From NCBI GenBank assembly GCA_959606905.1, contig CAUHML010000018.1, positions 1 to 50,763 on the forward strand: a stretch of DNA of 50,763 nt, written 5' to 3'. The DNA is from an uncultured Bacteroides sp. GTDB taxonomy: Bacteria; Bacteroidota; Bacteroidia; Bacteroidales; Bacteroidaceae. The notes beneath the pieces were generated by a model. The model saw only the letters and a list, made by a program, of their open reading frames with translations, was not told the DNA's origin and made no database searches. Made by a program: the position numbers and the translations under genes. Numbering within the stretch: position 1 is the stretch's first letter; every line of letters starts with the position of its first letter. Positions 2,748-5,912 of this stretch are shown piece by piece.

Positions 2748-3272
2748 ATGCCAAACACTCTACAAGAAAGTATGGAAGATGTTAGTTTTGCTTATATGCA
2801 AGCCCTTTGTGCATATAATGGATATACTTTATCAAAAGCAGAACGAGACAATGATGGTGTAGATGCTACAATCAAGTGTAAAGGGTATCCATGTAACCCT
2901 TCAGACTGTAGAAGGCGTTCCCCAATCATTGATATTCAATTAAAAGCCTCATACGTAAAACTTAAGGAAAAGAAAAATGGGGATTATTCCTTCATACTCG
3001 AAGCAAAAAATTACAATAATTTGGTTATGAACGATAGAATGACTCCAATAATATTAGTAGTTTTGCACATGGATAAAGATAGGAAGAAATGGGTAAAACA
3101 TTCAAAATCGGCTCTTAAAGTAACTAAATGCGCTTATTGGGTAAGTCTCAAAAATAATCAGCCTACGAACAATGGAAGTAGTATAACCGTTGTAATACCC
3201 AAGCAAAATATTCTATCTTGTGAATGTCTTAAGAAATTAATGATAAAAGTGGCAAAGGAGGAAGAGTTATGA
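2748..3272 (+). CDS. DUF4365-like, PD-(D/E)XK-type nuclease candidate
   Basis: A 174-residue protein. The N-terminus (ESMEDVSFAYMQALCAYNG), the block ERDNDGVDATI (residues 32-42) and IDIQLKAS (61-68) fit the DUF4365 pattern. The arrangement Glu10, Asp39 and Gln64-x-Lys66 resembles a PD-(D/E)XK nuclease core in its QxK form. Proteins of this kind are often found in defence islands and mobile elements. The gene overlaps the next one by 4 nt (ATGA), so they form a translationally coupled pair. Cleavage activity is inferred from motifs only. Strongly AT-rich codon use fits the accessory region. Confidence 0.65.
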   Translation: MPNTLQESMEDVSFAYMQALCAYNGYTLSKAERDNDGVDATIKCKGYPCNPSDCRRRSPIIDIQLKASYVKLKEKKNGDYSFILEAKNYNNLVMNDRMTPIILVVLHMDKDRKKWVKHSKSALKVTKCAYWVSLKNNQPTNNGSSITVVIPKQNILSCECLKKLMIKVAKEEEL

Positions 3273-4399
3273 AAGACTTAAAAAAAGCTATAGATCTCAT
3301 TACAGTAGAAAAGCTAGAAAAAGTTCTTTCTTTTTTAAAATGGCGCGAATTGGATGTTTTGATGAATGGAAGAGTGCGTCAATTTGTATCTCCCGACGAT
3401 GAATATGTAGCGCTAATACCACTTGTTAAAGAGTTTTCTGATTACTATAGAGTACTAGGAGAAACCTTGCAATCCATTGCGTCTTTTGAGAACAGGGCTA
3501 TAGAAGCATTGGTTAATAGGATATTAAATCCATCGTATGATATTCAAAAATGGCGCATAGCTAATAGTTATACTTCTGATGGGAAAATACCCTTCTTTAG
3601 CATGACAGATACTATAGAAAAAATAAAAGATGTTTTAGCTACAACTTATTTAGATACTTTAAATCCTACAAGATTTCACAAAAAAGTCTATACAATGGAT
3701 GTTAACAAGAATATTTCAGAATATTCTTTTGGACAAACAGAAATAGGTAGCTATATCCTAAATATATTATGTCCTCTTGGAGATTATCAATATACAATTT
3801 TTAATCCAACAGAACAGGATATTCCATTAAACCGAAAAATAAATATGCGGTTACTGTCTTCAATCAATAATATTCAAAAAGACTTAGGAAATAGTGATAC
3901 TAACAAAGTCGATGAAGATGTCGACAAAGGATTGTATAGTGTTAATTTTCTTGATTCATTAGTAGATATTTATGATGAGACCAAAGATACAGAGATGAAT
4001 ATAATTGTCGACTGGTGTAAAGATGTTAGATTTGTAAAAGAAGCTCCGGTATCCTCTATCAAATTAGAACCTATTTTTATGGAAAAAGTTAATTTTATAG
4101 CTGATAAATATAGGCCTAAAAAAGAAGAAAATGTTCAAAAAACATATTATGGAAAAATCGAAAGTATTACGGCTAATCCAGAAGTAGAGAATAGGGAATA
4201 TGTTCAAATCAAAATTGTTACCATTGGAGATGACAATAAGAAGCTTAACATACAATCAAGATTGAATTATAATGCTTTTTACTCTATTGTAAAAACTGCT
4301 TTTGATAATGGATCTAATATAAAACTGTCTGGTATTCAGAAAGATATAGGAAAACAGAAATGGATAGACAATGGCGTCTTAGAATTATTAGATAGATAA
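3269..4399 (+). CDS. Hypothetical partner of the DUF4365 protein
   Basis: A 376-residue soluble protein that I cannot assign to a family. The N-terminal two thirds are mostly helical, with an acidic stretch around residues 208-222. The last 90 residues look like a small beta-barrel or OB-like module (YYGKIESITANPEVENREYV, then SNIKLSGIQKDIG and WIDNGVLELLD). This type of C-terminal module recurs in uncharacterised proteins near defence genes. Its ATG overlaps the stop of the DUF4365 gene by 4 nt, so the two products probably act together, perhaps as sensor and effector. That pairing is inference. Confidence 0.55.
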   Translation: MKDLKKAIDLITVEKLEKVLSFLKWRELDVLMNGRVRQFVSPDDEYVALIPLVKEFSDYYRVLGETLQSIASFENRAIEALVNRILNPSYDIQKWRIANSYTSDGKIPFFSMTDTIEKIKDVLATTYLDTLNPTRFHKKVYTMDVNKNISEYSFGQTEIGSYILNILCPLGDYQYTIFNPTEQDIPLNRKINMRLLSSINNIQKDLGNSDTNKVDEDVDKGLYSVNFLDSLVDIYDETKDTEMNIIVDWCKDVRFVKEAPVSSIKLEPIFMEKVNFIADKYRPKKEENVQKTYYGKIESITANPEVENREYVQIKIVTIGDDNKKLNIQSRLNYNAFYSIVKTAFDNGSNIKLSGIQKDIGKQKWIDNGVLELLDR

Positions 4400-4431: not shown

Positions 4432-5733
4432 ATGAAAAAGGTTTTATTTTTAATGGTGGCTGCATTAGCGATAATGGGATGCAGTAAAGATTCTACATTC
4501 ACAGATGATAGCGACGATAATAAAGAGATTCCGGAAGTATCCGTAACAGTAGATGCATCTGATATAAAAGTTGTAAGCGCAACGCTAACAGGAAATGTAA
4601 ATTCAAACGCACTCGAAGAAGATAGATTAGGTGTAACCAATTATGGTTTCATCGTGTCAAAAAGCAGCAATCCAACAAAAGAAAATGGATGGGTTCTAAA
4701 AGGGAATAATATAAAAGGAAATGAGTTTTCGGTTAAAGCTATGAATTTAGCTCCAACGACCCAATATTATTATGTATCATTCTTTTATGATGGTTCAAAA
4801 TATTATTATGGGAAAATTCTCTCATTTACAACCAATGATTTTAACTCAACCGATTTGAAAGCAGAAGCAAATCCTGGAGATACATACGTAGATTTCAAAG
4901 GGTATTTAGATTATGAGAAAATTGGATATTTTGATTCTTTCAAAGTCGCTTTTTGTTTGAACAATGTTCACACTGGGTATAGCACTGAAATGGTGAGCGT
5001 AGGAACTCATTATACTTATGAGACAAGCTTTAAAAGCATATCTGCTGGAACAAATCATGAGTATTATTTTTTTATTGAATATGTTGATAAAAGTAATATC
5101 AAACATACATTCAGAGGACAAAATCAAAGCTTCTGCACACCTCTAGAATTGTCAACAGGTGCTGTAGATCTTGGATTATCCGTTTTATGGGCTGGGGTTA
5201 ACCTAGGAGCAAGTTCACCTGAACAATATGGGTTATTTCTAGCATGGGGGGAATCTACAGAAAAAGACAATTATACATCTTCTAATTATTTATATAATGG
5301 CATAATTATTGGTAATGACGTAACAAAACCCGGCTTCAAAATTAAAACTTATGATATAACTAATACTGATTATGATGCACCGCATAAAATTCTATCAAAT
5401 GGATGGCATATTCCAAATCCTAAACAGATAAAAGAGTTGATTGATAATTGTAATTGGAAGTATATGAGGTATAAAGGGGTAGATGGTTTTCTCGTAACTG
5501 GGCCTAATGGAAATAATATATTTATTCCTGCCGCTGGAAAATATAATAATGATAAATATGAAGGAGAACGCAATTATGCACATTTATGGGCAGGAGAATG
5601 CATTATAGATAGAGATAGAAGATCAAGTTACGTGTTGAATGTATCCTTTTACCTAGCCAGTTTAAATACAACTAGTGGATATGTTTCATCCTATTATGGA
5701 CATAATATACGCCCTGTCAAAGATAAAAAATAA
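4432..5733 (+). CDS. Surface lipoprotein with Fn3-like domains and FISUMP/C-type-lectin-like C-terminus
   Basis: A 433-residue predicted lipoprotein: signal peptide MKKVLFLMVAALAIMGC with lipobox Cys17, then a low-complexity acidic linker. Residues about 35-130 and 135-235 look like two Fn3-like beta domains (for example NLAPTTQYYYVSFFYDGSKY). Residues about 238-433 resemble the FISUMP module (DLGLSVLWAGVNLGASSPEQ, WHIPNPKQI, IFIPAAG, ending NIRPVKDKK). Such C-termini have a C-type-lectin-like fold and are known targets of diversity-generating retroelements, though no reverse transcriptase is in the window. It is the last gene before the att site, a usual place for cargo that changes the host surface. 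Confidence 0.7.
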   Translation: MKKVLFLMVAALAIMGCSKDSTFTDDSDDNKEIPEVSVTVDASDIKVVSATLTGNVNSNALEEDRLGVTNYGFIVSKSSNPTKENGWVLKGNNIKGNEFSVKAMNLAPTTQYYYVSFFYDGSKYYYGKILSFTTNDFNSTDLKAEANPGDTYVDFKGYLDYEKIGYFDSFKVAFCLNNVHTGYSTEMVSVGTHYTYETSFKSISAGTNHEYYFFIEYVDKSNIKHTFRGQNQSFCTPLELSTGAVDLGLSVLWAGVNLGASSPEQYGLFLAWGESTEKDNYTSSNYLYNGIIIGNDVTKPGFKIKTYDITNTDYDAPHKILSNGWHIPNPKQIKELIDNCNWKYMRYKGVDGFLVTGPNGNNIFIPAAGKYNNDKYEGERNYAHLWAGECIIDRDRRSSYVLNVSFYLASLNTTSGYVSSYYGHNIRPVKDKK

Positions 5734-5859: not shown

Positions 5860-5901
5860 TTCGTAACGCGTAGGTCGCCAGTTCAAGTCTGGCTAGCGGC
5901 T
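5860..5901 (+). tRNA. 3' half of a tRNA-Thr(CGU) gene; right attachment junction
   Basis: From 5860 the sequence reads as the second half of a tRNA: anticodon loop TTCGTAA, 3' anticodon stem CGCGT, variable loop, T-arm GCCAG-TTCAAGT-CTGGC (5877-5893), acceptor strand TAGCGGC (5894-5900) and discriminator T. A strong terminator follows at 5913. The 5' half is absent: the bases upstream do not supply a matching acceptor strand (GCCGCTA) in place, a D-arm or a paired anticodon stem. This is the usual scar of an integrase that recombines in the anticodon loop. The intact copy should sit at the other end of the element, left of this window. Confidence 0.75.
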
Positions 5902-5912
5902 CTTGATAATAA

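Follow-up and report, generated by a model that had tools for sequence, protein, structure and literature searches.

What is the role of two overlapping genes that lie between the phage repressor and the att repeat of an integrated element? The locus belongs to a stretch of 50,763 nucleotides from an uncultured Bacteroides sp. (contig CAUHML010000018.1; this whole stretch is the window), in which gene A and gene B follow each other on one strand and overlap by ATGA (Table 1). A preceding sequence-only reading had taken the pair, a DUF4365 nuclease-like protein and a partner that it did not recognise, for a candidate anti-phage system of no described composition. Our analysis confirmed the two open reading frames (ORFs) and their overlap and supported the candidate role, since the pair is conserved, PADLOC lists both proteins and the predicted fold of A is like that of a defence nuclease; the composition itself was found to be catalogued already.

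The gene pair is a member of the candidate class PDC-M02

The product of gene A matched the Pfam family DUF4365 (5.8e-21, residues 10-165), and both proteins matched the models of PDC-M02 in PADLOC-DB 2.0.0 over nearly their full length (PDC-M02A, PDLC04297, 1.5e-55, positions 3-164 of 165; PDC-M02B, PDLC04320, 2e-195, positions 1-373 of 374). The pair is thus a member of this class and shows no visible difference from it, the class itself being a computational candidate. PDC stands for 'phage defence candidate' in the excerpt of PMC11514479, and the excerpt of PMC11811056 describes PDC systems as unpublished candidates. The name PDC-M02 was not found in the literature searched.

To examine how regularly the genes occur together, we counted 54 distinct B-matching ORFs of at least 300 aa, excluding the window itself and repeats with identical last 150 residues; 51 of them, including one (L057) that matches the first part of B only, had at least 400 bp of upstream sequence. 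A DUF4365-profile ORF stood immediately upstream in 48 of these 51. The exact 4-bp overlap was present in 23 of the 48 paired loci, and in six the readable part of A consisted of short or broken fragments only. The first scans with the B profile had returned 27 loci (genome contigs, 17; viral contigs, 10), and every one had a DUF4365-profile hit directly upstream; two of the 27 are repeats of others. Pairwise distances of A and of B were correlated (r 0.83; 0 of 9999 permutations as high) among 22 of 25 pairs, after removal of rows at least 70% alike. These results indicate that the pairing is far from chance, and the rare co-occurrence that the sequence-only reading had named as a refutation was not seen.

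The distribution of the pair is wide and patchy. It was found in 15 of 395 Bacteroidota genomes; among 148 relatives the close B profile detected it in two, and in at least four when finds through DUF4365 are counted. The reverse search of these relatives gave eight DUF4365 places over the cut-off, five with B directly downstream; the other three are longer ORFs (335, 342 and 643 aa) with best PADLOC match to Aga_REase (1.4e-15, 8.8e-19 and 1.8e-6), an Argonaute-associated nuclease going by its model label. Records with the pair, many of them metagenome-assembled genomes (MAGs), carry the names of Bacteroidota, Bacillota and Pseudomonadota members, of a Roseibacillus and of a Methanosaeta MAG. 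The pair also occurs on two plasmids, in Leptospira phage LE1 and in M. abscessus prophages. A tblastn search of named phages with the window B found nothing; more distant B queries matched LE1 and two M. abscessus prophages. In the M. abscessus prophage prophi102-2, the pair forms genes 1 and 2 at one end of the record.

Gene A has the active site and predicted fold of a SPARDA-type nuclease

The sequence-only reading had placed Glu10, Asp39 and Gln64-x-Lys66 of A in PD-(D/E)XK order. This placement was correct, and the residues were conserved in alignment A2 (30 rows, close relatives) and alignment A4 (25 distant rows, omitting three loci with broken A: L010, L011 and L024). The Q-x-K motif corresponds to Q60/K62 of the DREN nuclease of NbaSPARDA and to Q62/K64 of TmuRE, listed as active-site residues in the excerpts of PMC12205087 and PMC10810196, respectively. 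Asp39 is equated with the NbaSPARDA residue D41 (PMC12205087) because of the motif order and the common fold. In the fold list obtained with the predicted structure of A, SPARDA nucleases stood at the top, above Hjc, and resolvases and restriction enzymes came lower in the lists; as modelled, A folds like a defence nuclease of the SPARDA collateral-nuclease type.

The context of this nuclease differs from that in SPARDA. Gene A is free-standing, with 174 aa of which residues 10-165 are covered by DUF4365 and with no APAZ domain; next to the pair lie the repressor and a lipoprotein gene, and no short Argonaute, and the partner protein ends in an OB fold. B gave no Argonaute family in Pfam or NCBIfam, or in the best 25 of its 31 PADLOC families. 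A SPARDA-type active site in an Argonaute-free pair was not found in the papers searched.

Gene B ends in a predicted OB fold

Protein B is without any Pfam family. The small beta-barrel-like module that the sequence-only reading had seen at its C-terminus is, in our structural model, an OB fold of the single-strand-DNA-binding type. The Pfam family tRNA_anti-like, an OB family, matched 13 of 33 close relatives of B (limit E 10, best 5.2e-4; its position in the proteins is not given) and did not match the window B at the same limit. The most conserved region of the family is the motif GQTEIGS, of which Q156, E158, G160 and S161 were kept in 28 of 28 rows (alignment A3).

Several other assignments of B were considered. 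A phage structural or replication protein, the second refutation named by the sequence-only reading, was rejected, as Pfam, PHROGs and NCBIfam gave no such named family. Toxin B subunits among the OB matches were put down to the generic fold, and weak matches to RlmF, cystatin and threonine synthase were regarded as chance. Relatives of Argonaute or APAZ were not among the matches listed, a fold list being no proof of absence. Separately, an ORF of about 200 aa at loci L051 and L058 (G476) matches the B profile at the N-terminal and OB parts and not in the middle; it is either a natural short form or a deletion.

Relatives and probable relatives of B stand beside different enzymes

The class PDC-M63 resembles the window pair in that a small gene comes first and overlaps a B-type gene; the partner is PDC-M63A, whereas the window has a DUF4365 nuclease. 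At L081 and in a Klebsiella plasmid copy (L085), PDC-M63A (nucleotidyltransferase-like by eye) overlaps PDC-M63B, and the pair of L085 lies 3' of an S24-family gene, among phage-type genes. We aligned the B profile by hhalign with five PDC-M63B/DUF6575-type proteins, chosen for matching PDC-M63B, DUF6575 or another such protein and not for likeness to B, and obtained E 1e-5 and probability 82 over 198 collinear columns, reached by none of 120 shuffles; three PDC-M63B proteins gave E 1.4e-4 and probability 53 over 223 columns (0 of 120 shuffles). The joint set of L064, L081 and L083 gave E 0.015, with one of 200 shuffles equally good, and each singly was not significant (E 0.091, 0.13 and 0.49). 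The alignment begins at about residue 85 of the window B, the earlier part having no aligned counterpart. A BFVD match of B to a DUF6575 protein had E 1.9e-7 but TM 0.29 and rmsd 16. Judged by these profile alignments, PDC-M02 B and PDC-M63B are probably remote homologues.

The excerpt of PMC9519451 (Vassallo et al. 2022) gives DUF6575 as a domain of one defence system that was selected in E. coli. The same source describes PD-T4-10 as two overlapping ORFs, as in the window, with tested anti-phage activity. PD-T4-10_A and PD-T4-10_B were not in the best 25 of 27 PADLOC families for A and 25 of 31 for B, which PDC-M02 leads; the link to the B family is through the hybrid protein of L083, which joins an N-terminus of PD-T4-10_B (2.7e-10) to a C-terminus of PDC-M63B (4.2e-9) beside PD-T4-10_A (1.2e-28). 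At L064, the DUF6575 protein has a PDC-M63B match spanning residues 112-369 (1.4e-10), and its neighbour matches PD-T4-10_A (8.7e-8); relatives of L064 were not found in the viral contig search. DUF6575 occurs in proteins of about 370-420 aa (L064 and L083, each with its PD-T4-10_A-like neighbour) and also in free-standing proteins of about 140 aa (L078 and L079 listed), for example beside ParA-/ParB-type genes on a Parabacteroides plasmid.

The three B ORFs without an A gene upstream point to partner exchange. One lies 272 bp 3' of an MmeI-matching gene (L038, 1.9e-68) and another 39 bp 3' of a DUF1828 gene (L045, 7.7e-27); the genomes of both (99% and 97% complete, respectively) gave no DUF4365 match. 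The third (L057, 1188-2597, minus strand) is a fusion of the N-terminal domain of B (its first approximately 94 residues) with the end of an AAA ATPase that weakly resembles OLD, GajA and PtuA; a helicase-like gene (by eye) adjoins, and the genome has two DUF4365 matches elsewhere. We put forward, as a tentative proposal that may well be wrong, that B belongs to a superfamily of infection sensors with a conserved 'GS' domain and an OB-like barrel, a superfamily that the papers searched do not recognise as such. Their effectors would be exchangeable and would include the DUF4365 nuclease, PDC-M63A, parts of PD-T4-10, the DUF1828 protein and the AAA ATPase. PDC-M02 would in that case be the counterpart of SPARDA without an Argonaute, its collateral nuclease of the SPARDA type being assembled by an OB-fold sensor. 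No tie of B to a module occurring with several different enzymes was found in the papers searched.

Proposed mechanism and alternatives

On balance, we lean towards the interpretation that the pair is a two-gene prophage defence system, which would protect the host cell from other phages. By analogy with SPARDA, safe until assembled, A would be silent alone. B would sense an infection signal through its OB fold, likeliest DNA exposed in phage replication; given this fold, the most probable trigger would be single-stranded DNA or a replication complex of the infecting phage. The GQTEIGS domain may relay the signal or take part in assembly. B would then gather A molecules, A would cut DNA indiscriminately, and the infection would be halted, probably at the expense of the cell.

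Some points weigh against this interpretation. The literature searched contained no direct test of PDC-M02 against phage, and in the excerpt of PMC12409345 a deletion of PDC-M63AB in the native host revealed no defence activity with a limited phage set. The second protein of PD-T4-10 is toxic and is neutralised by the first (excerpt of PMC9519451), and B may accordingly have a role beyond sensing. A also resembles resolvases, so that a role in DNA processing is conceivable.

Direct immunity of a restriction-like kind, in which B would detect some feature of phage DNA and direct A to it, so that the invader rather than all DNA is cut and the cell survives, would agree with the predicted PD-(D/E)XK fold of A, with the MmeI-like restriction enzyme gene that adjoins the B of L038, and with the direct immunity that Vassallo et al. 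report for 7 of 11 systems containing DNA-binding or cleavage components (excerpt of PMC9519451). We consider it unlikely, as the best structural and motif match of A is a collateral nuclease, even if resolvases and restriction enzymes follow further down the lists, and the pair has no coupled methyltransferase in the window, in contrast to type II restriction-modification. Still less probable is a toxin-antitoxin or addiction role, in which the pair would stabilise the prophage, with B as the toxin and A as the brake after the pattern of PD-T4-10, or the reverse, and with defence secondary or absent. The overlapping two-gene layout, the toxicity reported for PD-T4-10 and the joining of PD-T4-10_B to PDC-M63B at L083 would fit such a pair; D39, Q64 and K66, however, are kept in 25 of 25 distant A rows and would be unneeded by a plain antitoxin, and A is predicted to be a folded enzyme. 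Least probable is phage DNA processing in recombination or replication by a Holliday-junction-resolvase-like nuclease with an SSB-like protein, since, for all the likeness of A to resolvases, SPARDA nucleases outscore Hjc in its fold list, the pair is on the strand of the repressor, the syntenic locus L001 encodes separate recombination-type genes on the other strand (resembling ERF, NinB and NinG by eye), and copies occur on plasmids and in chromosomes, some adjoining defence genes.

The locus and the integrated element

The features of the locus are summarized in Table 1. The sequence-only reading had placed the pair between a lysogeny repressor and an att site; both are real, and the lipoprotein gene also stands before the att repeat. 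G001, the nearest genome compared, has two copies of the 43-bp tRNA-Thr(CGT) stretch 79 kb apart, and its DNA next to the nearer copy differs from the window past the common host flank, so that G001 seems to carry a different element there. The viral contig L086 has the host flank of the window (99.8% over 940 bp) and the element of G001 (98% over 7 kb); neither A nor B occurs in the 10.5 kb of its sequence compared. The 3' end of this tRNA gene is therefore host to at least two different elements, that of the window and that of G001 and L086 (loci L035, L036 and L086). The att repeat and the flank comparison indicate that the right end of an integrated element falls within the window and that its left end does not.

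Table 1. Positions of the features of the A-B locus in the window
Feature	Position	Strand	Remarks
S24-type phage repressor	1914..2681	+	Peptidase_S24 2e-13, phrog_4 1.1e-28; directly upstream of A
Gene A	2748..3272	+	174 aa; DUF4365 / DREN-type PD-(D/E)XK nuclease (predicted); PADLOC PDC-M02A
A Glu10	2775..2777	+	helix 1; 30/30 rows A2, 24/25 A4
A Asp39	2862..2864	+	30/30 rows A2, 25/25 A4; counterpart of catalytic D41, NbaSPARDA DREN
A Gln64-x-Lys66	2937..2945	+	30/30 rows A2, 25/25 A4; counterpart of NbaSPARDA Q60/K62, TmuRE Q62/K64
ATGA, A stop/B start overlap	3269..3272	+	putative translational coupling
Gene B	3269..4399	+	376 aa; proposed sensor/activator; PADLOC PDC-M02B (PDLC04320, 2e-195)
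B motif GQTEIGS	3731..3751	+	residues 155-161; most conserved region of family
B C-terminal OB fold (predicted)	4124..4396	+	residues 286-376; SSB/PriB/RPA-like, fold search with structural model
Lipoprotein gene	4432..5733		between B and att
att repeat, 43 bp	5860..5902	+	identical to 3' end of tRNA-Thr(CGT) in G001

The pair is probably expressed from the lysogenic side, beside the repressor and the att end, since the position and strand of its genes point to activity in the lysogen. Between the repressor and A, a search for a perfect Bacteroides-type promoter motif found none. The G+C content is 34% in A and 30% in B, against 43% in positions 7000-50000 of the window. At L001, the order repressor-A-B is retained and the 1.8 kb downstream are not alike; the lipoprotein gene, absent there, is possibly variable cargo. 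The C-terminus of the lipoprotein gave a weak, FISUMP-like match that falls below the cut-off (TIGR02145, E 0.016). Upstream of the repressor, positions 1301-1750 of the window encode a protein of 149 aa whose C-terminus is hydrophobic and which matched no family, and a similar ORF of 137 aa lies upstream of the repressor of L001. The record of L001 is named Lachnospira, and L002 (Eubacterium) and L006 (Bacteroidales) have an equal B score and the same layout; binning errors may account for the organism names given to these assemblies. Relatives of the window repressor were not found in the viral contig search.

We also scanned up to three ORFs on each side at 22 loci (121 ORFs; six of the loci are viral contigs), taking the best 25 of 254, 25 of 110 and 25 of 113 neighbour families; the scan had no background control and we claim no enrichment. 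Among the matches listed were HEC-01A (two ORFs), ATPases of the AriA/OLD/GajA type (two), and models of reverse transcriptase, PtuA, PDC-S05 and type II restriction-modification, together with phage head genes, integrases and ordinary metabolic genes.

Implications

In this pair, which occurs across many groups of bacteria, the kind of collateral nuclease that is used by RNA-guided Argonautes would have a different switch. Should B prove to be a shared sensor, the identification of one trigger would bear on PDC-M02, PDC-M63 and PD-T4-10-like systems. Because the catalytic residues have been mapped in SPARDA, the idea of an Argonaute-free collateral nuclease gated by a partner protein is testable.
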